From: a virus
DNA: 30,236 nt
Direction: 5' to 3' (one strand)
Virus record (IMG/VR): IMGVR_UViG_3300033144_001435
Location: 1 to 30,236 of that record
Position 1 is the stretch's first letter; the number at the start of each line of letters is the position of its first letter. Shown one piece after another: positions 483 to 14,666 of this stretch. Both the position numbers and the translations under genes were made by a program. The notes beneath the pieces are model-generated. The model saw only the letters and a program-made list of their open reading frames with translations, did not search any database and was not told the DNA's origin.

Positions 483-3400
483 TTATTTTACAATTATTTT
501 TTTCCTTACTTTTATAGGTTTGTTTTTAACATTCACACCACTACCTCTCATTTGATTTGGTTGTTTTATTTTAGATTTTTTCTTTTTCTTTTTTTTCGGA
601 GGTTCAGGTTTAACATCCCAATCCGGCCAACCTAACAACATAAATACTCTTTCGTAAGTTTGAGTATCTTCGGCCAATGCTTCTCTAACGTTTGCTACTT
701 TTTGCATTAATCTATCTAAAGGTAAATTAGTAGCAGTACTTATTATCTTAGCCAATGCTTCCCATGCCGGGTTGTCTAAAGCAAATCCTTTATCTTCAAT
801 TTCTTTTCTTCGTGTTTTAGAGTCAAATACCCATCCAGCATTCTTTAAGTTCATTAACTTTTTTCTAATAGAGGGAGAGAAGTTTAACAGCTCAGTCCAC
901 GCCTCTGAATATTCTGGTCTTGATTCTTTACTTCTGTCGTATATATCAATACCCATATTCTTAAGAACAGATACTACCATTCCTCCAAAACCTAAACCTC
1001 TAAGAATACTATCAACCATTCCATTAGCAGTGTTAAAAGTTTTATCATTCTTTCTTTTAGCAATTGCTTCTTTTTGCTTAGTAGTTAAACCTTCTTCATC
1101 ATCATCTTCAAAACCTAATAAAAATAATCCTTGTTGCATAGCGTTGAACCATAGATTTTGTATCACTCCATAATACATTATTTTACCTACGTTTTCTTTT
1201 GTAGATCCTCTGCCGTTTATTATATCTTGAAAAGCTCTTTTTTGTAGACGAGTGTATTGCATTGGAGTATTAACAAATTGCAAAATTAATCTACCCATTA
1301 AACTTGATTGTTGTTTAGATATTCTGCTAGGATCAGAGGATTGTTGAGAGGCTTCAGACTTTTCTTTAAATTCATCCATTGCTTGTTTTGCAGCTTCTTC
1401 TTCACTTAATCCTTTGTTTTTTATTAAATCTTTTACTCTGTTTCTATAAAAAGTCGCACCACCAGAAGCTATAGCAAAACTATCCATGAACTTAGTTGGT
1501 AAATAACCTTTTTCTAATATATAGTTTATTACTGCTTTAGCTTTATTTCTAGAACCTTTAGCAGCATCTGCTATTTCAGACTCACTAATGTTTAATTTAA
1601 GACCTTTTCTTCTATCAACCAAATATTCAGAGTTTAATAAGAATACAAAATCTTTCCAAAATTGAGGTTGATTAGCAAACGCAGCTCCCATTTTAGCAGG
1701 ATTATTAAAGGTCCAGTTAGCGAAGTTAGTGGCAGATATAGATTGCAACAATGCAGACCTCATGTTAAAAAACATTATAGTTCCTACTGAACCATTGATC
1801 CAATCCATTACAGCGTTAGTAAGTCTATCATTGCTAGCTGCTCTATTTTTCCCCGTCTTCATTCTTCTTAACATGTCCTCTAAAGCTTCTCTAAATTTAG
1901 GTCCATGAATAGACTCTAACTTATTTAAATTCTTTTCAGAAAATATTGTCTTGACATTTTGATCCCATACTTCTAAGTATTTATTTCTTTTAGTAGTATT
2001 TAAAAGACTAATTAAATCAGTGGTAATAGTACCTGCTAACCAATGAGTTCCAGGTTTAGAATATTTATCTCCTTTAGTAATAGTTAATATTTCATCCGCA
2101 AAAACTTGAAGTTGAGGATCATTTTCTATAACATCGTTTAATTCTTGTAAATCTCTCTTAGACAATCCAGGAATTTTTTCTCCAATTTTATTCCATAAAT
2201 AAACTCTAACTGCTTGCTCATTAGTGAATCCGGATTTAGTGGATTTTCTTAAATTTTTAGGAACATTTAATTTATTTTTTAATTCTTTAAAATCTTCCAT
2301 TAATTGCACTCTATCCGCAGTAAGATTACTTATGGCCTCAGCGTAAGGCTTTAATAACATGTTTTGGTAGAATTTTAATTGTTCTTCTCCTACCCTACCT
2401 TTAGCTAATGTAGAATAAAGTAACCCTAAAAAGTCTTCTGCAGACGGTGGTAGAAATAATTTAAATTTACCTTTACCTTTTCCTTTAACTCTTCCTTTCG
2501 CATCAGAGTAATTTTTATACCATTCTACTCCACTAGCGGCTTCTATATAGGTATTAAATTGTTTATCAATAGCTTCTGAATTACTTAAACGAGCTTGTTG
2601 TACTTTTCCTTTAACATCAATAACGTCTAACACATCTCTCACAGCGTTTACGTTACCCATATGATCATCTGCAAAATAGAAATCATTATAACCTTCAGCT
2701 GCTTTATCTACTATCCAGTTTGATTTAGCAAGAGGAGAACTATTACCTAATCCAGTTATGTTGTTTAAAGGAATGTTGAGATTTAAAGAGTCTAAAAATT
2801 CTTTAATAGCTGGTGCAGCGGCTGCTGCTCTAGCTGTTAAAACATAAACATCTTCAGTTCCTCTAACTTCTTGAATCTTTTTTGCTACTTCAAACAATGG
2901 TCCTTTTTTACCATCTACAACCTTATTGAATTCAGAGAAATCCCACACTGCTCCTTTACCAAGCATTTCATCTCCTTTCTTAGCAAACTCTTCAGCTGTT
3001 AATTTACCTGTAGTGCCATCAGGCATGGTATATAATACATTACTATTAGTTCTCGCAAGAGTATCATCAAAATCAAAAACCCTAATTTTTTTTACTGGTT
3101 GGTCTAAAGATTTAGCTCTGCGAAGAGCTTCATCAATTCCAGCAGCTTTACTCAACACTTCATCGGTGGTTAAGTTTTCACTTAAAGATAATACAGCTGG
3201 AGCTTTTAAAATGTTCTCTGTTTCTAATTTAGCTTTTTGTTCTGCTGGTGCTAATTTAACAAATTCCTTAAGAATACCTTTAGCTTTTTTAATAGAAATT
3301 TCATCATTAAAAAGCTTATCCATTAACCTACGTTGAGTTTCTATAATATTAGGAGTAATTTTAGCATTTTCTGACAAAGCGGAAATTCCTAATCCTAATT

Positions 3401-6400
3401 CGTCAGCAATTGATTTATTACCAGCAACTATTAAATTATTAGGATCAATTCCTCCCTTGTTTGAATTAACTTGTGGATTAAAATATCTTTGCCAAACACT
3501 ATCATCTAAATTCCATCCATCAGGAGTTTGTTCTGTATAATTAAAGTTTTTACCTTTTAACTTGTTATCACTAGTTACTAGCAACGCTCCTTGAAAATAG
3601 TTATCTTTTACAAGATTAAAATTTTCTTTTACTGTACCAGCATATGCTTGTCCAAATAAATACTTACCTAATATAGTCGCAGGCAAAGTATGCTCTTGTC
3701 TATAAGGTTGTGTCATGAATCCTTTTTCATAGAACTTCCATGGAGCTGCTTTTCTTATAAAGTGATTTTGAGTATAGCTAATAGAAGATAGTGTAGCACC
3801 TACAAACGCTATACCTTCTGGATCCTTCATTACATCTTGGAATGTTTCAAATACTTTTTCTAATCCTTTTAAAGAATTTTCTTGTCTTTTAATAAAAGCA
3901 GGATCATTTAAAGCTTTATATAAAGGTAGTTTTGAAGATCGAGGATCTTCTTTTTTAAGCATATCTTTAAATACTTCAGATTCCTCTGCAAACTTTCCTC
4001 CTTGTTCTTCAACAGATTTAACCCATGCTTTTGCTTCACCTACATTTCTAAAAGGTAAATTACCTGCAAATCCTCTTATTGCAGCTATTTCTGTATTGCT
4101 ATATCCTTCATCTTTAAGTTCTTTTATTAACGCCCTACCTTCTTTATCTTTTGGATCAACAAGTTTATCTATTCCCACAGTAGTGCCTTGCATTGATAAC
4201 CAAAAACTTTTAGGAAGTTTTTCTGTCAATTTACTTTTCACTGCGTAGTCTAAAAATCTTTTTCTTCCTGCCTCTGAATTCATGTTGATTCTATCAACAC
4301 CACTATCTTTTAATGCTTTACCTACTATGCTAGACCAAGGAACATTATAAGTAGAAAAATCCATATCACTAAATCTATTATATAGATCATTTACATTTTC
4401 ACTTCTACTAAACATTACTTTAGATTTTCCTTCAGCAACCTTTGAAGGAACTGTCTTACCAGTTTCTTGAGCTTGTTCTCTAATGGCTTGATTAGTAAGC
4501 ATTTTACCAGTTTGACTAACAAGAGCTTTTATTCTTGAGCTAGTATTTCTATCAGACAAGTTAGGTTGACCAGCAGGAGTAATTCCAAATAACTCGTTAA
4601 ACTCTTCTTTAGTTATATTATCTCTTTTAGTTTGTTCTTTTAAGCCTGCTGTACTACCAGTTTTAGCCATAGCAGCTCTACTACCTTTGGTATAAAACGC
4701 GTCAAGTAAAACTTTTTGAACACCAGTAGAAGTTCCAGATGGAGTAGATCCTTCTGGTAACATAGCTATTAACGTATCAGCATTTTTAGATATAAATTGT
4801 TGGGCATTTCTTACATCTGCTTTAGTTAAGTTTCCAGGTTTAGGAGTTATACCAAACATTTCCTGTGTCATTTCAGGTGTAAGATCTTTTAATGTTTTAA
4901 AATCTACAGCTTCAAGGTCAATGTCTTTACCACGTTTCTTAACTTCTTCTGTTATTTTAATAGCATCATCACCTAATCTTTCTTTTAATTTAATTCCGGC
5001 TCTAACTGGTTTTTCACTTGTTGTAGATTCAGAAGTTGTAGCTTGTTTTTCTGCAACCTGTCGTACTCCTTCTTGTTCCATACTGATTGTAGGAGTTTTC
5101 TTAGCTAATTTTTTAGCACCAGTACCTACCTTTAAACCTAAATATCCTCCAGTATACCCTGCAAGATCTGTATTTTTTGAAGGATCAAAAGCGTTTATAT
5201 GATTTATAAGGGGTTCAATTCCCTCAAAAGCTACATCCATAGGGCTTTCAGCTCCCTGTCTCTTAGCGATAGCGATCATATCAGGTATATAAAGCTCAAT
5301 CATCTGATTACGCATTCTAATACCTTTATTACTTTCTAAAAACTCATTCCATTCTTGCTTTGTTTTATCTCTTCCAAAACTATTATAGAATTCATCCATG
5401 AAACTATTTCTTTCATCTTGCCTTTTCTTTTTGTTAGCAGCGGTTTCATCTTGAATATCTAAAGACATAGATGTAGCTACTTCCGTAGGTAAAACTACTT
5501 CTCCATTTTCAGGTAGAGTAACAGTAGATTCTTTTACAGTTACATTTTCCTTGGCTAGTGGATTTTTTCTATTATATACAGTCTCACTTATTTCTTCACT
5601 GAATTCATCTCTTTTACCTTCTACTATTTCTTTAGTTTGTACTGAGTAATCTTTTATAAAATTATAAACTCCTTCAGCGCTATCCCAAGATAAATCTTTT
5701 TTGAATTTGTTAGGAGCTAAAGGTCTTAATATGTTATCTATAATCCAATCTCCTAATCTCTGGAATACATCTCTATCGTATTTTATATCTCCTTTAACTA
5801 CGGCATCATGAAAAGCATTAAACCACTCTTCAGTAGTAGACAGATCTCCAGAATATGTTCTTTTTAATCTAGCTAATACAGCTGCTTTTTCTTTTGGGTT
5901 TAAAAGTTTTTGAAAACTTTGAATTAACTCACTTTGTTTTTCTTCACTTAAACCAGCTAGTTGATCGGCAGTTATATCATGTAGCACTTCGTGAGTTACG
6001 GCAGAGATAGAAGCTAACTCTGTCATTTTCTCTAAGTTAACTATTATATTTCCACTACCATCTTTTAAGTACATAGCATCAGCTGTAGTTTGATCTACTA
6101 AATTACCTTCTGCATCTACGGCTTGAAGTGCAACATTACTGTCTTCCATAGCTTTAACAAAGTCTTGTTGATTATCTGCAAAAGTAATTTTACTACCTCT
6201 TTTATCTACTATTCTTTGTCCTAACTCTTTTTGTTTCTCAACTGCTGTGCTTGCGTTTTCAATTTCATTTCTAACATTCACATCATTAGAAGAAATATTT
6301 TCTATTTGTTCATTAATTTCTTGAATTTTGTTTTGAATGTTTGAAGCTGCAGACTTATCTAAATTTTCTAAACTCTTTTCTAATTCTTTTTTAACATCAA

Positions 6401-9400
6401 TTAATTGAGCGATTTGAGTCTGTGCAACTCCAGTTAAATTACTAGGGATTTGATTATAAGTATTATAAGTGTTTAAAGCTCTTTGAGTTAACTCTTGCTT
6501 TTCTTCTTTAGAATATTGATCATTAGATTCAATAGTAGACAAAGCAACTTCTAATCTTTTTTCAGATCTTAAAATGTTAGCTTTGTATTGTAACATTTCA
6601 TTTATATCAGCTTTAGCTTGATCATCTAATTGTTCCCAAGCATTTATATCCATTCCTTTATTAGACTGCAGAGAAGCTTGATAAACACCACCTAATGCAC
6701 CTACAGTAAAGCTAACTTTAACTAAATGTTTCATCTGATCTCTCCACTCTTGACTTTGCATGTCAGGTAATTGAAAGTCAATGTCGTCTCCTATATAGTT
6801 TTGAAAAATGTTATCTATACCTATAGCAGCAAACTCTTGAGAAAGTTCTTCTAAAGTTTCATCTGTTCCAGCACCAAGCATTTTTTTACCTTGCCCAACA
6901 CGTTTAGTTAATCCGTCTCCTAAATATTTATTTACCGCTGTACTAATATCTTGAACTGTAACTTTTTTTGCTCCACTCTTTGTAAAAGTACTTAATACTC
7001 CATTAGTTATTCCTGTAACTATTTTTGGTGTGATTTTTAAACTTCCTCCTAGTATTCTTCCTCCTAAATAAGATAAAGCTCCTTCTACTGTAGCTTGTGT
7101 ATAACTATATAAAGCTTGTTTAGATATGGGAAATTTTTCTTCAAAAGCTTCCATCGCACCTTTAATGGATCCATTGTGATCTTTCCTCCAATTCCTTAAA
7201 AAAGTTTCTTTTTGATCTGCAAATTTTCTTTGAGAATCAGTTAAACTAGAAAAGAAAAATCCTGTACCTAAACCTATAGGACTAGGTAAACCAAAACCTC
7301 CACCCATATAAGCGCCAACCATTTCTCCTACAGTAGTTAATGTACCACCAAGCCAAGTACTAGCATACCATTCTTGATACTCAGCATCCACAGTTGAATC
7401 AGCCATTACTCCAGCTGCTGCTTTTGCTTCATATGTTAAACTAGTTTTACCAGCAGTAAAAGTATTAGCATTGTATTCATATTCAGTTTCGTTAATCAAT
7501 CCTAGACCATAAGACATTTCATTCACCAACATTCCTACATCTGCTAAAAAAATACCCGACCCAGCAGCAGAATCAGTGAACTTTTTTGAAGCAGTGTTCC
7601 ATACAGGTGTGATAAGGTTTCCTCTACCCTCAGTGTCATCCATCATTTTTTGAAACTGCTCATCTAAGTCAGTATCAATTTGTCTAAAAACAAAATTGGT
7701 ATTTTGAAATAAACTAGCTTGGTCCATAGTTAACTGAAACTTATCGTAAAGTTTATTTATTTTCTTTAATCTACCTTGCGCATCTTGATTTAAACTTTCT
7801 ATCTCTCCAGTTACTTGATTGTATTTCTCTTGATAACCTTCTAAAATTTCATTTTTTTCAGTATCTAAACTATCGTATTCAAACTTTAAATCTTCATAAT
7901 CTGGAGTGTAGAAATTATCTCTCCAATACTTAAACTCTTCTCTAATTTTATCTTGAGCAGCAGGACCAATTGTGGTTTCTAATTCTGCTTTGGCTTTTTC
8001 TACTTTTTCTGTAAATTCACTATTTAATATTTCTATCTTTTCTCTAACAACTCCTTGATCTGCAGCTACTTCTTGTAAACTAGTTTCAGCAGCAACCCAT
8101 TCTTCTCTTAAACCTTTCGCTTGAGCTACTTGCTCCATAGACCTGTTGTTTTCGTACATTAAGCCTTCTTCTAGTTTTTCAAGAATTGGTTTTACTTTAT
8201 TTACTTCCTTGTTAGAATTTTTGAGAACTTGTTGTTTAACTTTGTTATACTGTTTGTCTTCTCTTCTCCAATTCCTTTCATATTTGGAATAATTATCTCT
8301 AATAAACTGGTATGGTCCTTGAGATTTATCCATCCAGTTTAATAAGTCTTCTACAGGTTTTCCTACATTTTCGTATTCATCTTTTTTCAAAAAATCTGCA
8401 AAGAAAGGAAGATCTCCTTTCATAATTTTTTCATCAATTAAAGCACTTTTTGCTAAACCTCTTTCCTCTAATTTGTTAAGTATATCTTCTTCTGGTATTT
8501 CATGCCAAGCTGTATATTCAGTATCTAAACCTACATTAAAGTCAGATAAAGATAAACCATTGTTTTTAGCAGTAGAAACAACATCAATTAAACCAGCCTC
8601 TCCTCCTTTTTTAAAATAAACTCCATTTTTATATACTGTTATAGTATTGTTTCCTTTATTAAAATCTGAAACCAATCCTACATTTCCAAAATTTTCATTT
8701 ATAGTTTTTACTAAATCTCTAGAATTCCACTTATCTTGAAGAGTATGTACGTTTCTTCGTTTTAATTCTTTTTCGTAATCCTTGTCACTAGCAAAATCTT
8801 CCCTATCCGCTCCAAATGTATAATTAGAAGGTCTAATAGCTATATTACCTTCTTCATCTCTCATAGTAAATTTAAATATTTGAGATGGATCCATGTTCTT
8901 ATCAAAGCGTGAAAGAGTTTTTTCTAATATTTCTACATTAGCAATAGCCATTAATTGGTTTTGTTGTAGAGTTAAAATCTCTTCATCAACAACTTTAATG
9001 TTATTATTAATTTCAGTTTGTTGATCTAAAGTTAAATTGTCATTATTCAAGCTTTCTATCAATTTATCTCTCTCAGTACTTTTAACTTCTACCTCTTCAC
9101 TTAAAGCTTTGGGATTAGCATGTACTATTCCATTTTGGTCAGATTGTACTTCAAATTCAGGCAGCTGCTCATCATAAGGTGTTTCAGGATCTTCCGTATA
9201 ACCTGTTTTCCACTGTTCTACTACATTTTCTTCAATCGGGCGAGCAGCTCCTTGTTTACTATCTACAACTTCTAACTGTCCGGTTTCAGGGTTTACTTCA
9301 ACTTTTTCATATACCGGTACATAGTAGTATTCTCCTGCACTAGTTTTATCATATAATCCTTTAGAAAACCTAGAAGCTAATGGATGATCGTCATCAAACT

Positions 9401-10043
9401 CAATTGATTTAGCTGTATAGGTGGTTTCTTCTCCCTCTTTAAATTCAGTTCTTTTTTTATCTGTTTTCTTTAAAGCTACTAATTCATATCCTTTAGGAGC
9501 TTGCAAGCTAGTCTCTTTATCTATATCTAAGTTTTCTAAATCTTCTTTGTTTAAAGTTTCAAGAACATTTACATCTTCATATAATTCAGTGTTTCTATCA
9601 GTTTCTTCAGGAAAATAACCTTCAAGCTGAACAGTACCTCTTCGAGCAGCTTCAACTCCTATTTCGTATTTATTATATTCTCTTTCTCTCCAATCTTTAG
9701 CTGTTAAGTAAGGACTTTTAGTAGATATTCTTAACTTTTCTTTATCTTTTTCTGGATCACCATCTTCGTTAACAAGATTTTCTGGAGATAGTTCATTGAG
9801 TTCTTTTTCCTCTGTTGATTGTAACTCCGATGAAACATTTTCCAAGAATGATTCCGTATTGACTGCTTCTGTCTGCGGTGTTTCGTCTGCAGTCACCTCC
9901 GCAACACCTGTGGGCTTTTCCACGTCTACTACCTCTTCTTCTAAAACTTCTTCTCCTGAATCAAACTTGTCCATTAAAGAGATAAATTCTTCTTTTTGTA
10001 GCCCTTTGTTAATTAAATCTTGAGCGTATTCTAATCTTGTCAT
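483..10043 (-). CDS. Giant multidomain (polyvalent) virion protein with zincin, sigma-like and HAD phosphatase regions
   Basis: A 3186-residue protein, about a third of the window. Residues 30-105 are acidic and disordered-looking. Gly-rich hydrophobic segments lie near 900-937 and 990-1020, followed by TLEELSQEF near 1065. A zincin-type motif HEVLH lies at 1351-1355, a sigma region-2-like stretch at 1555-1650 and a HAD phosphatase at 2318-2480. A helical C-terminal region has motifs such as MFFNMRSALLQSIS (about 2757-2770), QQSSDP and NTPMQYTRLQKRAF (2899-2937). The last 42 residues are about 40 percent Lys/Arg, including seven consecutive lysines. Giant proteins of this design are known in marine phages as polyvalent proteins, usually thought to be packaged and ejected with DNA. 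Two virion-interior-type genes precede it. Several enzymatic or binding modules in one chain are visible; packaging and ejection are inferred. The start at 10043 lies 10 bases after the previous stop. Confidence 0.85.
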   Translation of the reverse strand: MTRLEYAQDLINKGLQKEEFISLMDKFDSGEEVLEEEVVDVEKPTGVAEVTADETPQTEAVNTESFLENVSSELQSTEEKELNELSPENLVNEDGDPEKDKEKLRISTKSPYLTAKDWREREYNKYEIGVEAARRGTVQLEGYFPEETDRNTELYEDVNVLETLNKEDLENLDIDKETSLQAPKGYELVALKKTDKKRTEFKEGEETTYTAKSIEFDDDHPLASRFSKGLYDKTSAGEYYYVPVYEKVEVNPETGQLEVVDSKQGAARPIEENVVEQWKTGYTEDPETPYDEQLPEFEVQSDQNGIVHANPKALSEEVEVKSTERDKLIESLNNDNLTLDQQTEINNNIKVVDEEILTLQQNQLMAIANVEILEKTLSRFDKNMDPSQIFKFTMRDEEGNIAIRPSNYTFGADREDFASDKDYEKELKRRNVHTLQDKWNSRDLVKTINENFGNVGLVSDFNKGNNTITVYKNGVYFKKGGEAGLIDVVSTAKNNGLSLSDFNVGLDTEYTAWHEIPEEDILNKLEERGLAKSALIDEKIMKGDLPFFADFLKKDEYENVGKPVEDLLNWMDKSQGPYQFIRDNYSKYERNWRREDKQYNKVKQQVLKNSNKEVNKVKPILEKLEEGLMYENNRSMEQVAQAKGLREEWVAAETSLQEVAADQGVVREKIEILNSEFTEKVEKAKAELETTIGPAAQDKIREEFKYWRDNFYTPDYEDLKFEYDSLDTEKNEILEGYQEKYNQVTGEIESLNQDAQGRLKKINKLYDKFQLTMDQASLFQNTNFVFRQIDTDLDEQFQKMMDDTEGRGNLITPVWNTASKKFTDSAAGSGIFLADVGMLVNEMSYGLGLINETEYEYNANTFTAGKTSLTYEAKAAAGVMADSTVDAEYQEWYASTWLGGTLTTVGEMVGAYMGGGFGLPSPIGLGTGFFFSSLTDSQRKFADQKETFLRNWRKDHNGSIKGAMEAFEEKFPISKQALYSYTQATVEGALSYLGGRILGGSLKITPKIVTGITNGVLSTFTKSGAKKVTVQDISTAVNKYLGDGLTKRVGQGKKMLGAGTDETLEELSQEFAAIGIDNIFQNYIGDDIDFQLPDMQSQEWRDQMKHLVKVSFTVGALGGVYQASLQSNKGMDINAWEQLDDQAKADINEMLQYKANILRSEKRLEVALSTIESNDQYSKEEKQELTQRALNTYNTYNQIPSNLTGVAQTQIAQLIDVKKELEKSLENLDKSAASNIQNKIQEINEQIENISSNDVNVRNEIENASTAVEKQKELGQRIVDKRGSKITFADNQQDFVKAMEDSNVALQAVDAEGNLVDQTTADAMYLKDGSGNIIVNLEKMTELASISAVTHEVLHDITADQLAGLSEEKQSELIQSFQKLLNPKEKAAVLARLKRTYSGDLSTTEEWFNAFHDAVVKGDIKYDRDVFQRLGDWIIDNILRPLAPNKFKKDLSWDSAEGVYNFIKDYSVQTKEIVEGKRDEFSEEISETVYNRKNPLAKENVTVKESTVTLPENGEVVLPTEVATSMSLDIQDETAANKKKRQDERNSFMDEFYNSFGRDKTKQEWNEFLESNKGIRMRNQMIELYIPDMIAIAKRQGAESPMDVAFEGIEPLINHINAFDPSKNTDLAGYTGGYLGLKVGTGAKKLAKKTPTISMEQEGVRQVAEKQATTSESTTSEKPVRAGIKLKERLGDDAIKITEEVKKRGKDIDLEAVDFKTLKDLTPEMTQEMFGITPKPGNLTKADVRNAQQFISKNADTLIAMLPEGSTPSGTSTGVQKVLLDAFYTKGSRAAMAKTGSTAGLKEQTKRDNITKEEFNELFGITPAGQPNLSDRNTSSRIKALVSQTGKMLTNQAIREQAQETGKTVPSKVAEGKSKVMFSRSENVNDLYNRFSDMDFSTYNVPWSSIVGKALKDSGVDRINMNSEAGRKRFLDYAVKSKLTEKLPKSFWLSMQGTTVGIDKLVDPKDKEGRALIKELKDEGYSNTEIAAIRGFAGNLPFRNVGEAKAWVKSVEEQGGKFAEESEVFKDMLKKEDPRSSKLPLYKALNDPAFIKRQENSLKGLEKVFETFQDVMKDPEGIAFVGATLSSISYTQNHFIRKAAPWKFYEKGFMTQPYRQEHTLPATILGKYLFGQAYAGTVKENFNLVKDNYFQGALLVTSDNKLKGKNFNYTEQTPDGWNLDDSVWQRYFNPQVNSNKGGIDPNNLIVAGNKSIADELGLGISALSENAKITPNIIETQRRLMDKLFNDEISIKKAKGILKEFVKLAPAEQKAKLETENILKAPAVLSLSENLTTDEVLSKAAGIDEALRRAKSLDQPVKKIRVFDFDDTLARTNSNVLYTMPDGTTGKLTAEEFAKKGDEMLGKGAVWDFSEFNKVVDGKKGPLFEVAKKIQEVRGTEDVYVLTARAAAAAPAIKEFLDSLNLNIPLNNITGLGNSSPLAKSNWIVDKAAEGYNDFYFADDHMGNVNAVRDVLDVIDVKGKVQQARLSNSEAIDKQFNTYIEAASGVEWYKNYSDAKGRVKGKGKGKFKLFLPPSAEDFLGLLYSTLAKGRVGEEQLKFYQNMLLKPYAEAISNLTADRVQLMEDFKELKNKLNVPKNLRKSTKSGFTNEQAVRVYLWNKIGEKIPGLSKRDLQELNDVIENDPQLQVFADEILTITKGDKYSKPGTHWLAGTITTDLISLLNTTKRNKYLEVWDQNVKTIFSEKNLNKLESIHGPKFREALEDMLRRMKTGKNRAASNDRLTNAVMDWINGSVGTIMFFNMRSALLQSISATNFANWTFNNPAKMGAAFANQPQFWKDFVFLLNSEYLVDRRKGLKLNISESEIADAAKGSRNKAKAVINYILEKGYLPTKFMDSFAIASGGATFYRNRVKDLIKNKGLSEEEAAKQAMDEFKEKSEASQQSSDPSRISKQQSSLMGRLILQFVNTPMQYTRLQKRAFQDIINGRGSTKENVGKIMYYGVIQNLWFNAMQQGLFLLGFEDDDEEGLTTKQKEAIAKRKNDKTFNTANGMVDSILRGLGFGGMVVSVLKNMGIDIYDRSKESRPEYSEAWTELLNFSPSIRKKLMNLKNAGWVFDSKTRRKEIEDKGFALDNPAWEALAKIISTATNLPLDRLMQKVANVREALAEDTQTYERVFMLLGWPDWDVKPEPPKKKKKKKSKIKQPNQMRGSGVNVKNKPIKVRKKIIVK
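1074..2606 (-). other. Helical C-terminal region of the giant protein (residues about 2480-2990)
   Basis: This part of the giant protein follows the HAD domain and looks like one long helical unit. It begins with KGKGKGKFKLFLPPSAEDFL and contains GSVGTIMFFNMRSALLQ, SFAIASGGATFYRNRVKDL, QQSSDPSRISKQQSS and NTPMQYTRLQKRAF. It ends with a hydrophobic run (VIQNLWFNAMQQGLFLLGF) followed by an acidic patch. I recall this block as recurring at the C-terminal end of giant marine-phage proteins, without an assigned function. The hydrophobic and aromatic content would suit membrane contact or assembly inside the head; that is inference. Confidence 0.5.
2604..3092 (-). other. HAD-superfamily phosphatase domain inside the giant protein (residues about 2318-2480)
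   Basis: All four HAD motifs are readable in order. Motif I is VFDFDDTLA with nucleophile D2324 and acid/base D2326. Motif II is VLTAR with T2403. A candidate motif III lysine is K2440 or K2447. Motif IV is YFADDHMGNV with D2459 and D2460. The 75-residue gap between motifs I and II leaves room for a small cap. The closest functional analogy I can offer is the phage polynucleotide 3'-phosphatase type (DxDGT, then an Arg/Thr motif, then DD), but the substrate cannot be read from the sequence. Confidence 0.82.
5094..5381 (-). other. Sigma-70 region 2-like stretch inside the giant protein (residues about 1555-1650)
   Basis: A helical segment runs from YIPDMIAIAKRQ through VAFEGIEPLINHINAFDPSK to TDLAGYTGGYLGLKV (D1620 in FDPSK). 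It follows the pattern of sigma region 2: a helix, a 'hhphGhhpLhpAhppFDPpK' motif, then 'shpsYhshhhp'. There is no matching region 4 helix-turn-helix that I can see nearby, so it is not a complete sigma factor. It may bind RNA polymerase or nucleic acid, or keep only the fold. Similar FDPSK-type segments are, as I remember, common in giant marine-phage proteins. Confidence 0.5.
5784..6086 (-). other. Zincin-type metallopeptidase motif inside the giant protein (residues about 1320-1420)
   Basis: ISAVTHEVLHDITAD places a classic HEXXH motif at H1351-E1352-H1355. Hydrophobic residues precede it, as expected for the active-site helix. About 50 residues on, TTEEWFNAFHDAV offers E1405 or E1406 as a third zinc ligand, as in gluzincin-type enzymes. 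Polyvalent phage proteins are known to carry zincin domains. Whether it cuts host proteins, virion proteins or the giant protein itself cannot be told. Confidence 0.72.
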
Positions 10044-10053
10044 GTATATAATT

Positions 10054-12081
10054 TTATGCGCTTAACATTTTAAATAAATCTTCTGCACTAGCATCTTCTT
10101 CTAATAACGTTAATTCATCTGTACTAGTTATTTTTGCAGCATCTCTAATAAGTTTCGTTACCTCGCTTTCTCTTAAATTCAATGCTTCTCCTATTTCATA
10201 AGCAAATTTTTCCCAAGTTTTAGCTAGTTCACTCCATTTAGGATTAACATTATTAGGAGATAGATTTGCAATTATTGATTTTGGATCATAATTTGTTGCC
10301 GCTTTTTCCAGATCACCATCAATTATAGCTTGTTCGTTATCTTTATTCCATTGTTTGTTTTCTTCATTAACGTCTGCTCCAGTTTTATATGATCGTGCAT
10401 TTTTTTGTGGACCATAATTTGAGCTTAAGTAGTTAAGAAGTTCTACGGTTCTTTGAGGATTATTTTTTAATCTTTCAAAATTTTGCTTTAATTCTGGGAA
10501 TGAATATTTTCCACTGTCTCTTTTAAATCCTAAGTCTTCAAATCCTGATATTTCTATCACTTCTTTTCTAGCCCAATCACTATCTTTTTCTTCTTTTTTA
10601 GCTTTAGCTTTTTGCTTTTTAACTTCTTGAATAGTATTATAAGTAGTTGTAACATTTCCACCAAACGCACCCATATCTGCACCATGCTCAGTTTTCAACT
10701 TGTTAATAACAGATTGCACCATATAATCTTGTTGCTGATGTTGTTGTTGCTCATCTAAATCTCCATCTCCCCAATAAATGTTTCCTGTTGCTTCTGCACC
10801 ATTTAAAAGTTGCCAATTATTTTGAGCATGTTGACCTTTAGTAAAAGTAGCAGATCCCATTTGTCCATTACCTATATCTCTATCACTACCATAAAAATAA
10901 CTTTTTACAAAATTCTCCATTTTTTCATTAGCTTCATCCCATATTTCTATTGCTTGCTTTTCAGTTATTTTTTTATTTCCTATATAATAAGTATTTTGAT
11001 CAGTTTGTCTAATTGGTTTGTAAAAATCTTTTATACCCGCCTGTATGTAATCATACATTAATTCAACAGGTTTTTCTTGAGTAGTGTTAACTAATCCAAA
11101 ACCTTTTTTCTTAACATTATTAATTAAATCATTATAAGGAATTTCTAATACTGCTTGAGATATACCAGGATTAAAATACTTAACTATCATTTGTCCATCG
11201 TGCAATTCAGTTTTAAACCTATGTTTATTTTGACCCGTCATCCAATCAATAGAAGCATTCATGTTCATTATAAAGTTTTCATCTTTTTGCATCAGTACAG
11301 ATCCTACTGTTCCTAAAGATTGAACATTACCATCACTGTCTAATATAGTTTTAATATTTTCTGAATTTTGATGCATAACTCCATTAAATTTGTTATATTG
11401 CTCAATACCAGTTTTAATGTTTTGTTCAGCTTCTTGATAATAAGGGTTGTCAGGATCATCTGCGTATTGATTCATCACACTATAATTCTCTCTAATACTT
11501 TTTTCAATACTTCCTTTTACACCTAAACCAAACGGTTTATGTCCTGCTTCTTTTTCATCTTCATAAAACTTACTAAGAGCTATATCTTGACTTACAAACT
11601 GATTTGCTTTATCATCCCATTGAAGTCTTCTAACAGAATAAACCTGATCGTTTATTAATTCTTTTTCTTTAGCTGAAGGATTATAAGAAAGTTGCCATAC
11701 ATCAGGAGTTGCTGGATTATTATCATCATCAACTTTTGAAGCTCCAGAGTACATTTTGTCAAGCAATGCTACTTGAGCATCGTTTATTTGAACTAGTTTA
11801 GTTTGACCATTTTGATTTCTAACCAGATCATAACCTAAGTACCCTTGACTATCTCCAAAAGCGTTTATTTCAGCATTACTCTCTAATATAGATTTATTTG
11901 TTTGAGCTATATTTTTCTTTTTATTAGCAGCTTGTTTTGCTTCTGCTTTTTGAAGCTTTTCAAGTTGAGATAACTCTAGTTTATCTTTTTTAGCTTGACG
12001 ATCTAAACCTTCTTTAAAATTTTTACTAAAGTGATTCAACCTTTGATCTATGATTTGGCTTGGTTGCCTATATGTTCCCAT
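10054..12081 (-). CDS. Predicted virion-interior protein, 675 residues, function unknown
   Basis: A 675-residue, highly charged protein with no recognisable catalytic motif. The first 70 residues (MGTYRQPSQIIDQRL, then runs of Lys, Glu, Gln and Ala) look like a coiled coil. The middle is mixed and polar, with a Gln-rich run (DEQQQHQQQD) near residue 450 and a Lys/Glu-rich helix (KKQKAKAKKEEKD) near 490. The tail is acidic (LLEEDASAEDLF). It sits between a Gln/Ala-rich interior-type protein and the giant protein, with gaps of 12 and 10 bases, so it probably belongs to the same packaged set. In T7-like phages this position is taken by internal core proteins. I recall similar proteins beginning MGTY beside giant genes in marine phage genomes, always unassigned. 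There is no signal peptide or membrane segment. Confidence 0.65.
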   Translation of the reverse strand: MGTYRQPSQIIDQRLNHFSKNFKEGLDRQAKKDKLELSQLEKLQKAEAKQAANKKKNIAQTNKSILESNAEINAFGDSQGYLGYDLVRNQNGQTKLVQINDAQVALLDKMYSGASKVDDDNNPATPDVWQLSYNPSAKEKELINDQVYSVRRLQWDDKANQFVSQDIALSKFYEDEKEAGHKPFGLGVKGSIEKSIRENYSVMNQYADDPDNPYYQEAEQNIKTGIEQYNKFNGVMHQNSENIKTILDSDGNVQSLGTVGSVLMQKDENFIMNMNASIDWMTGQNKHRFKTELHDGQMIVKYFNPGISQAVLEIPYNDLINNVKKKGFGLVNTTQEKPVELMYDYIQAGIKDFYKPIRQTDQNTYYIGNKKITEKQAIEIWDEANEKMENFVKSYFYGSDRDIGNGQMGSATFTKGQHAQNNWQLLNGAEATGNIYWGDGDLDEQQQHQQQDYMVQSVINKLKTEHGADMGAFGGNVTTTYNTIQEVKKQKAKAKKEEKDSDWARKEVIEISGFEDLGFKRDSGKYSFPELKQNFERLKNNPQRTVELLNYLSSNYGPQKNARSYKTGADVNEENKQWNKDNEQAIIDGDLEKAATNYDPKSIIANLSPNNVNPKWSELAKTWEKFAYEIGEALNLRESEVTKLIRDAAKITSTDELTLLEEDASAEDLFKMLSA

Positions 12082-12093
12082 TTATATTTTTTT

Positions 12094-12777
12094 TTATAAA
12101 TCCATTGTACCTATCATGCTGGCCATATCTCCAAATGCCCCAAACGCTTGATTGCTCATGTTTTGTTGGTTTGCAGCTTCATTATCTAGCATTGCTTGTG
12201 CTCTATCTAAGTCCGCGTTCAATCTATCTTCTTGTGCTGCCCATTGAAACTTAGCACCTTCCATTTGTGCTCCTTGTATTCTAGCTGCTTCTGATTGTTG
12301 TACACCTTGTAAACGTTGCATCTCTTGTAATTTAGCAGCTTGTAATTGAGCTTCACCTTGAGCCCTTAATTTTTCATTAGCTACTTCTTGTTGTTCTATA
12401 TTTGCCGCTATACCAGCTTTTCCTTGAGCTGCTGCTTGAGCTAATGCAGTTGCACCACCCGCACCCATACCACTAATTCGTAGTGTATCTAATGTGTTAG
12501 CAAGAGCAATATCAGTTTGTTCCATCTGTAATTCAGCAGCTTTAGAAGCAACTCTTAAATTAGCATAGGGATTAGTCATTTCTCCACTCAAGTCTGTAGC
12601 TTGGAACGCTTGCATTCCACTACTGGGATCAATAGGAGTTGTACGTTGATTTATTAAAGTATCTAAATCTGATTGATAGCTTGAAATAGTTTCATTCATA
12701 GAATTAGCTTGCCCTTGAGCATACAATCCTTGGGCAAAACTTACTCCAGCTGCTATTATTTGAGGATCTACGGCCAT
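12094..12777 (-). CDS. Internal virion protein-like, Ala/Gln-rich coiled-coil protein
   Basis: A 227-residue protein with a mildly hydrophobic N-terminus (MAVDPQIIAAGVSFAQGLYA) followed by a long Ala/Gln/Glu-rich helix. Residues 95-120 are Ala/Gly-rich (ISGMGAGGATALAQAAAQGK) and about 120-200 form a near-continuous coiled coil. The end is hydrophobic with several methionines (FGAFGDMASMIGTMDL). The amphipathic, Ala-rich design and the position after the tail genes match the small internal virion proteins of T7-like phages (gp14-type), which are ejected and associate with the cell envelope. The assignment rests on composition and position, not on a definite sequence match. The leader AAAATAAATAAAC before ATG lacks a Shine-Dalgarno site. 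Confidence 0.65.
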   Translation of the reverse strand: MAVDPQIIAAGVSFAQGLYAQGQANSMNETISSYQSDLDTLINQRTTPIDPSSGMQAFQATDLSGEMTNPYANLRVASKAAELQMEQTDIALANTLDTLRISGMGAGGATALAQAAAQGKAGIAANIEQQEVANEKLRAQGEAQLQAAKLQEMQRLQGVQQSEAARIQGAQMEGAKFQWAAQEDRLNADLDRAQAMLDNEAANQQNMSNQAFGAFGDMASMIGTMDL

Positions 12778-12788
12778 GTTTATTTATT

Positions 12789-14666
12789 TTAAGATGATTT
12801 TACAACTTTAGACGCTACACTAAACAATTCTTTTTCTCCTCCCACTTCAGTTACATCATCAGTGGACATTGTTATAGTAGCATAAAATCCTTTTATCCCA
12901 GACATTGTGTTTCCAAACACAACTTCACCTGGTCTAGGAGGATAAGTTGAAGAATTAGTAATTTGCTGTAGCAGGTTAGCTACATATCTATTTTCTTTTC
13001 TATTGAATCCAGCATAAGAATAAGGAGGTGTAACAGCTGAGATTCCAGTTAAAGTAGGTGCGTTAGTCTCGTATCTACCTTCTAGGTAACTATATACAAC
13101 AGTTGTTTTATCTTGATACTGTTCATACTCTTCTATAGCTCCATTTAAACCTCTGAAGTCTTCGCCTTCTAAATCACCATCAAACGATGTAACCTCCCAT
13201 CCACTAGAACCTTCATAAGAAACTGTTTGAAACACTTTACTTGTAGTAGGTTCTCCATTAGCAAAGAAAGTTACACTTGAAGGAGCGTAAGGATTTTCGT
13301 AAAAGAAACCTCTTCTGTTTGGAACAGTATCATCAAATTGCTTGTAGAGTTTATAAGTATCTGTAGTATAATAAGTGTTTTCTAAACTTCCTATAGTTGT
13401 TGGTTTATAACTATATCTACTTACCCACCCATTTATTTGTTCATCAAAAGAAAGAGTATCAAAAGTATTAGGTAATGTACTATAAAAAGCTGGTACAGTT
13501 TGTAAAGAAGTAACATAATGTTTAGAATAAATATCATACCCACCCAATATTCTACCTCTCTTATAACTACCAAACCTCAAGTCTGTCCAAGTAGAAGTAT
13601 CTACTGCTTGAGAAGTAGTTATTTCGTATTGGTTAGCTCCTACTAATACTATATTTATCACATAAGCTCCTGTTGGCGTATAGTTTACACCATCAACTGT
13701 GGTAAAAATTTCTGATCCAAACTCTAGAGTATGATTAGGATTTGATATTTCAAAAACAGATATTCCTACTCCTACCGTAACAATAGTTGCAGTAGTATAG
13801 TAAAACTTAAAAGAGTTGTCTATTTCTGCTAGTTCATCTCTAAAATAGTCAACCATACCATACTGACTAATTTCTGTTAACCCATCTCTAGATAATCGCA
13901 TGATAGCACTTCTATCTTTATCAGCAAAATATTTTTGAAAACCAAACGTAGCAAAAGATTCTGGGTTTTGACTAATACCATATTCTCCTAAATAAGGTAC
14001 CACCTGACCTATAACTAGTTGGCTAGAAGTAACCGTACCACCACCTTCAGCAGAATAAATAGCATCTTTATCTATCAATGCATAACTACTTTTGTTTTCT
14101 TGAAGAATTAATAAGTTGGTATCATCTGCGTATAGTTTCTGAATAGATCTAAAAGCAGGATCTACAGATTTAGTAATGCTTTCGCCAATGGAAAATACAT
14201 TAGTTTCATTAAAACCAGTAAAACTATTATATGGACCTGAATATATTAATGAAGCAAATCTATGTTGAGCAACTGGATTATCTTCGTTTAAGTAAGCTCG
14301 AACTCCAAGATCAACTTGAGTGTTTCCAAATCCTCCTCTAATTCTACTATCTTCAATGAAATAACTAGATCTTAAAGCTTGTTTTTCCGTACTGTTAAAC
14401 CAACCGGGCCACAAACCCTCTTCAAATGGAATTGTATCACAAGCTGGCACAAAACAATTTTTTCCAATAATGTTTTGATTTTGTAAACCAGTTACACAAT
14501 CACCAAAACTCACAGGACCTGGAAGAGTTCCAGTACTTTCAGAAAGTGTAGGAACAGGTACTCCTCCGGTGTCGGGTATAAATTCCTCATATACACAAGG
14601 AGTACCAGTGTGAATTCTCTTTGTCCAAAAGGAGTTAAAATAATCTACTTCAAGAATCGCCGCCAT
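12789..14666 (-). CDS. Large tail (nozzle or hub) structural protein, 625 residues
   Basis: A beta-rich 625-residue protein. After the start MAAILEVDYFNSFW there is a short region with four cysteines (about residues 24-76). Conserved-looking blocks follow: EDSRIRGGFGNT, LYADDTNLLILQENK (about 179-193), ALIDKDAIYSAEGGG, GEYGISQNPESFATFGF, FADKDRSAIMRLSRDGLTEI, LSFDEQINGWVSRYSYKP and, near the end, MSGIKGFYATITMSTDD. I recall this block series in short-tailed marine phage tail proteins, where it occurs either as its own gene or fused to the preceding nozzle protein. It follows the 1638-residue nozzle-type gene after 32 bases, so the two products probably form one assembly at the tail tip. No enzymatic motif is seen. 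Role inferred; structural status fairly firm. Confidence 0.75.
   Translation of the reverse strand: MAAILEVDYFNSFWTKRIHTGTPCVYEEFIPDTGGVPVPTLSESTGTLPGPVSFGDCVTGLQNQNIIGKNCFVPACDTIPFEEGLWPGWFNSTEKQALRSSYFIEDSRIRGGFGNTQVDLGVRAYLNEDNPVAQHRFASLIYSGPYNSFTGFNETNVFSIGESITKSVDPAFRSIQKLYADDTNLLILQENKSSYALIDKDAIYSAEGGGTVTSSQLVIGQVVPYLGEYGISQNPESFATFGFQKYFADKDRSAIMRLSRDGLTEISQYGMVDYFRDELAEIDNSFKFYYTTATIVTVGVGISVFEISNPNHTLEFGSEIFTTVDGVNYTPTGAYVINIVLVGANQYEITTSQAVDTSTWTDLRFGSYKRGRILGGYDIYSKHYVTSLQTVPAFYSTLPNTFDTLSFDEQINGWVSRYSYKPTTIGSLENTYYTTDTYKLYKQFDDTVPNRRGFFYENPYAPSSVTFFANGEPTTSKVFQTVSYEGSSGWEVTSFDGDLEGEDFRGLNGAIEEYEQYQDKTTVVYSYLEGRYETNAPTLTGISAVTPPYSYAGFNRKENRYVANLLQQITNSSTYPPRPGEVVFGNTMSGIKGFYATITMSTDDVTEVGGEKELFSVASKVVKSS

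Follow-up and report, generated by a model that had tools for sequence, protein, structure and literature searches.

Why would a phage close its virion gene cluster with a single polypeptide of 3186 residues that joins a zincin, a sigma-70 region-2-like domain and a HAD phosphatase domain? The gene in question, P0001, lies in a 30,236-base stretch of an IMG/VR virus record (here, the window), in which the large genes are all on the minus strand. It occupies positions 483..10043 (-) as one intact open reading frame with an ATG start and zero internal stops, and the longest opposite-strand frame across the same interval encodes 136 aa. The original prediction of one uninterrupted 9.6-kb frame of 3186 residues is confirmed, and its description of charged ends is also correct, with an acidic N terminus and a Lys-rich C terminus. 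The Lys-rich tail itself (486..596, -) was modeled by AF2 with a pLDDT below 50. The hydrophobic Gly-rich segments that were described as well are at best weak, as no 19-residue window in a Kyte-Doolittle scan of P0001 reaches a mean of 1.5, and the maximum is 1.48 at residues 3009-3027. The giant is followed by a small basic protein of 130 aa without a PHROG match (76-468, -).

P0001 is the final large gene of a minus-strand virion module. It is preceded by P0002 (10054..12081, -; 675 aa) and the Ala/Gln-rich P0003 (12094..12777, -; 227 aa), which hold the positions of T7 gp15 and gp14, respectively. The rest of the module, P0004-P0015 (12789..30223, -), was assigned through PHROGs and homologues in Flavobacteriia podoviruses and comprises the muzzle-like P0004/P0005, the ring/connector-type P0007/P0008, P0009, the MCP (P0012), a scaffold-like protein (P0013), the portal (P0014), and the terminase large subunit (P0015). 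PHROG virion families are matched by the TerL, portal, MCP, and connector-type proteins. P0004 (12789-14666) and P0005 (14699-19615) match parts of both phrog_14478 and phi40:1 gp097; judged from these matches, the muzzle-like gene is single in phi40:1 and split in two in the window.

The small, middle, and giant genes recur as a triad (~150-315 aa, ~295-710 aa, and the giant) at no fewer than 40 of the 53 loci examined; in the window, their sizes are 227, 675, and 3186 aa, and the giant stands third. A family profile of P0003 matches phi40:1 gp099, elemo gp20, Panino, phi18:3 gp120, and Gundel, and a profile of P0002 hits Panino CDS0071, from a Maribacter phage, weakly (E 6e-4). In both phi40:1 (gp099, gp100, and gp101) and phi18:3 (gp120, gp121, and gp123), experimental MS/MS underlies the annotation of the small, the middle, and the giant protein. 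The virion-type context originally proposed for P0001 is supported by the profiles and by this synteny with MS/MS-confirmed virion proteins, and a location of the giant in the virion is likewise supported by analogy with those proteins. The giants phi40:1 gp101, phi18:3 gp123, elemo gp18, Panino CDS0069, and Gundel gp074 occupy the same virion-module position as P0001, two of them with MS/MS confirmation, but their homology to it is confined to single domains. The C-terminal part of the P0001 family is found again in Gundel gp074 and its zincin in elemo gp18, in a small database that makes the E values optimistic, whereas six domain profiles detected no homology of P0001 to phi40:1 gp101 or phi18:3 gp123, which share its position only. 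The Panino giant (L003:35399-40888) is merely 1829 aa long and is annotated as a tRNA methyltransferase, which suggests a different cargo at the same position.

The portal matches 87 phage records, 86 of which infect Flavobacteriia (Flavobacterium, Cellulophaga, Tenacibaculum, and Maribacter), while MW202828 has no recorded host. Of the relatives of the giant in genome bins, some belong to bins of Flavobacteriaceae, Flavobacteriales, Sphingobacteriales, and Bacteroidetes. These two lines together indicate that the host is likely a marine Bacteroidota. The window phage is a podovirus with kin among the phages of Flavobacteriia, and two of its relatives, Calle and Gundel, belong to the podoviruses as well (PMC8776804).

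As a single query, P0001 returned nothing useful from Pfam, PDB, or phage records, and only family profiles were informative; a direct search with its first 1164 residues turned up no relatives. A single scan of viral contigs that used P0001 as the query yielded 131 relatives. Residues ~2490-3150 are the constant part of this family, and the remainder is modular and far more divergent. Of 68 complete giants in a non-redundant set, 63 have HExxH, 40 the sigma-like segment, 45 a module that we call EEH, and 56 HAD. Their order (zincin, sigma-like, EEH module, HAD, and C-terminal anchor) is invariable, and the HExxH-to-sigma spacing is 195-315 aa, so that the three motif modules first noted in P0001 alone are real at the level of the family. 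P0001 also bears the marks of a polyvalent protein: one chain carries at least two unrelated enzymatic or binding domains (zincin, sigma-like, and HAD), it sits beside late virion genes in the manner of phages, and domains are shuffled between giants, with HAD, sigma, and a nested kinase each present or absent and the N terminus variable. The helical C-terminal anchor (residues 2490-3150; 594..2576, -), delimited by alignment A2 and an AF2 model, has a mean column identity of 43% and ~50 invariant columns. One giant is spread over two overlapping frames of 1335 and 734 aa (L076:6947-10954 and 10935-13139), through fission, frameshift, or sequencing error.

The zincin domain is gluzincin-like and spans residues 1300-1490 (5574..6146, -). 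Its HEVLH zinc-binding motif (residues 1351-1355; 5979..5993, -) is followed by Glu1406 (5826..5828, -), the predicted third zinc ligand, 55 residues past the first His. Both HExxH and a Glu at this distance are invariant in all 71 aligned giants, and the Glu is invariant again in alignments A1 and A7; the family thus has the HExxH and downstream Glu ligand that characterize gluzincins. An AF2 model of P0001 residues 1180-2289, built without templates, gave a pLDDT of ~75-94 over most of the zincin region. Anthrax lethal factor and Certhrax are among its Foldseek matches, which are weak (E >1); the N4 zincin has likewise been tied to lethal factor (Iyer et al. 2017, PMC5512222).

Two further conserved regions separate the sigma-like segment from the HAD domain. 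A domain of undefined fold at residues ~1690-1900 (4344..4976, -; alignment A3) carries FGI / NLTK / LP.G.TPSG motifs and has a pLDDT of ~90 or higher over much of its length. The EEH module (residues 2040-2289; 3177..3926, -; alignment A6) carries E-H..P ... NY ... RYFN ... GID motifs, of which E-H..P and RY.N / GID are near-invariant, and its profile found zero matches in PDB.

The HAD phosphatase domain (residues 2305-2500; 2544..3131, -) is defined by alignment A5, in which motifs I-IV are invariant: D2324-F-D-D-T, T2403-A-R, K2440, and D2459-D2460. The DxDxT, T, K, and DD signature of the HAD class is thereby complete, with a weak match to the Rossmann-like fold. The region matches phrog_415, "polynucleotide kinase," with E 8.1e-6 in P0001 and 5.5e-8 in one relative, and family members match Pfam HAD / DUF2608. 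In the T4 member of phrog_415, one half is a HAD phosphatase. In 16 relatives, the HAD domain contains a nested P-loop kinase of ~199 residues, inserted after motif I and ahead of the cap region; in a near relative (L088:9786-10502), it matches AAA_33 (E 2.7e-18) and Zeta_toxin (4.8e-13). P0001 lacks this kinase. A different sequence (YYHGTS... GLGKHYTKS...) fills the same slot at residues ~2232-2424 of the L073 giant; its slight resemblance to an ADP-ribosyltransferase has no Pfam support, and we rejected that reading. With a kinase in 16 relatives and another sequence in L073, the HAD slot behaves like an exchange site for cassettes. The triad, the C-terminal anchor, the EEH module, and this nested kinase of relatives all go beyond the original description. 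T4 Pnkp and related polynucleotide kinase-phosphatases share with the giants the phrog_415 match and, in the relatives, the pairing of a P-loop kinase with HAD, but in the relatives the kinase is nested inside HAD and has AAA_33 and Zeta_toxin as its best Pfam matches. Such a pairing of kinase and phosphatase suggests a role in healing nucleic-acid ends, and a zeta-toxin-like sugar kinase role of the nested domain would be equally compatible. Such sugar kinases occur within polyvalent proteins (Iyer et al. 2017, PMC5512222).

The sigma-70 region-2-like domain bears most directly on what the giant may do. It lies at residues ~1558-1655 (5079..5372, -), as located by profile A4, Pfam, AF2, and Foldseek, and iterated profiles place its core at residues 1603-1638 (5130-5237, -). 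Iterated profiles seeded with P0001 residues 1571-1660 recovered the segment in 47 giants; it is not detectable in 28 of the 68 non-redundant ones. When the A4 profile (30 segments) was compared with all of PDB, taking matches up to E 10, the best 60 of 73 matches were all bacterial sigma factors (best E 3.6e-6), aligned at region 2.1-2.2, while profiles from other parts of the giants (A2, A5, A6, and A7) gave zero sigma matches. Pfam Sigma70_r2 is matched singly by 6 of the 30 members, and P0001 scores E 1.8e-11 with a sigma-like model trained without it and its nearest relatives, the best reversed-sequence decoy reaching 0.91. The significant match to sigma region 2 belongs to the family and not to the window's subfamily alone, as a profile of the three sequences of that subfamily retrieved sigma factors without significance (RpoS at E 0.61, below a helical design at 0.016). 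The domain profile also gave no significant match to two single standalone phage sigma sequences.

Structural modeling had been proposed as a check. The zincin and sigma regions are confidently modeled, the latter with a pLDDT of ~87-92, and Foldseek matches of the sigma-like region are mostly sigma factors (4x8k_A with probability 0.96 and TMt 0.49; 5or5 with TMt 0.57; 6omf_F with 23% identity), but no PDB match of the AF2 models falls under E 0.001. Taken with the profile searches, a sigma region-2-like fold of the segment is well supported.

We compared individual residues in a gapless register to sigma-70 with an offset of plus 1200, using its core-binding positions D403, Q406, E407, N409, and M413 and its promoter-melting tryptophans W433 and W434. 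An acidic residue is kept at D403 (24 of 30), along with hydrophobic residues at 412/413, F419, position 427, and an aromatic residue at Y430. The core-binding Q406, E407, and N409 are not kept, nor are W433/W434 and the −10 recognition residues, the equivalent columns holding G/S/K and Q/I/Y. No region-4-like part was detected in the giants. The sigma-like module of the original prediction stands on firmer ground than the sequence alone could give, being family-wide and specific to sigma region 2, but only 2.1-2.2 is kept and the melting tryptophans are gone. This pattern of kept and lost residues makes contact with RNA polymerase plausible and promoter melting unlikely.

Which polymerase would be contacted? 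Searches of 15 relatives for Rpb1-/Rpb2-type multisubunit RNA polymerases (PF00623 and PF00562) found none, with controls matched 14/14; the single-subunit family PF00940 likewise had no match in the relatives, although its control also matched nowhere. As a single-sequence query, P0001 had no RNA-polymerase match in Pfam, PHROG, or PDB. A separate sigma factor of ~250 aa is encoded by 8 of 20 records. The lack of a multisubunit polymerase and the presence of these sigma factors suggest that phages of the giant family probably use the host RNA polymerase. At two loci (L112:1090-1842, -, and L113:1396-2151, +), the separate, full phage sigma factor (phrog_351) lies beside Erf-like annealing genes.

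We lean, with slightly better than even confidence, toward the giant being a packaged ejection protein that uses its sigma-like domain to dock on the core RNA polymerase of the host. It would serve a Bacteroidota phage with a short tail in the position that gp16 has in T7 and gp50 in N4, packaged with the genome and exiting through the tail alongside the products of the preceding two genes. The helical C-terminal anchor is its constant part, with the other domains upstream. The zincin would likely act in self-processing or in cleavage of a host target, and the sigma-like domain would dock on the clamp of the host core polymerase at the site of sigma region 2.2. Docking may keep the polymerase on the DNA as it enters, where the onset of transcription would draw the genome into the cell, or it may displace the host sigma while the phage has yet to produce a sigma factor of its own. 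In this reading, the domains, their order, and the gene context come directly from the computation and packaging from analogy with syntenic virion proteins, whereas injection, polymerase binding, self-processing, and the enzyme targets are inferred, as is the originally proposed action ahead of phage gene expression. The broader proposal, that a large marine family of Bacteroidota podoviruses carries in its virions an ejection-fused sigma mimic that captures host core polymerase on entry in place of an N4-type virion polymerase, is more tentative, and we hold it at somewhat short of even confidence.

The sigma-like domain might instead be an inhibitor that occupies the clamp, blocks the host sigma, and stops host transcription before the phage sigma takes over. 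The retention of region 2.1-2.2 alone, the lost melting tryptophans, and the undetected region-4-like part all agree with inhibition, as do the separate 250-aa sigma factors of many relatives, but T7 gp16 at the equivalent position recruits host RNA polymerase (PMC12633501). Our data fit recruitment and inhibition alike, and we regard inhibition as unlikely yet a serious contender. We are more doubtful that the giant is structural or tail-barrel cargo, with sigma helices co-opted without polymerase contact, a zincin that only processes the polypeptide, and a HAD domain that acts on DNA ends or nucleotides. Core-binding residues that are only partly kept and the many giants without a detectable sigma segment are consistent with such a role, as is the zincin self-processing proposed by Iyer et al. 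2017 (PMC5512222), but fold-specific residues and a position that both stay constant in very divergent proteins, with an HExxH-to-sigma spacing of 195-315 aa, argue against it. A chance likeness of helical bundles is highly improbable and already largely refuted, since the helical design that tops the search with the window subfamily alone is outweighed by the uniformly sigma-factor matches at the head of the family profile's PDB search, their absence from the four other profiles, the independent Sigma70_r2 matches, and a template-free model that also resembles sigma.

Several known systems resemble the giant. Like N4 gp50 of the Schitoviridae, it belongs to a podovirus, reaches a comparable size (~3500 aa in gp50), and combines an HExxH domain with a large helical C terminus; gp50 is an ejection protein made with two smaller ejection proteins, and it is a virion RNA polymerase with a zincin-like HExxH domain (PMC12633501). 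N4 thus carries its own polymerase, whereas no RNA-polymerase domain was found in the giant, which has a sigma-like piece instead, and we found no sequence relation between them. The T7 gp14/gp15/gp16 ejectosome shares the small-medium-giant gene order of the window triad, but no sequence homology is shown. T7 gp16 is ~1300 aa long and is not known to contain a sigma-like or zincin domain. With the polyvalent proteins (PMC5512222), the giant has in common a long polypeptide near late virion genes, a zincin joined to unrelated enzymes, and swappable cassettes, but its own family is marked by the sigma region-2-like domain and by a HAD domain that offers a slot for a nested kinase. The words "sigma" and "phosphatase" do not appear in the text of Iyer et al. 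2017 (PMC5512222), and we found no virion-borne sigma domain in the open-access literature.

Our results add two items to the catalogue of polyvalent proteins, a sigma module and a HAD phosphatase in which a kinase can nest, both in a giant family that is common in marine metagenomes, as the number of relatives from one scan indicates. Its cousins in culture have Cellulophaga, Flavobacterium, Maribacter, and Tenacibaculum as hosts, which makes bench tests possible. Virion RNA polymerases, as in N4 and P23-45, are a known way to start transcription or pull DNA in at entry. If the proposed capture of host polymerase is true, the sigma mimic would explain in molecular terms how transcription is coupled to genome entry or how the host is taken over at once. 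A sigma-like domain in an ejection protein, if so used, would be a third way beside virion polymerases and recruitment by gp16, and one with a defined, testable contact.
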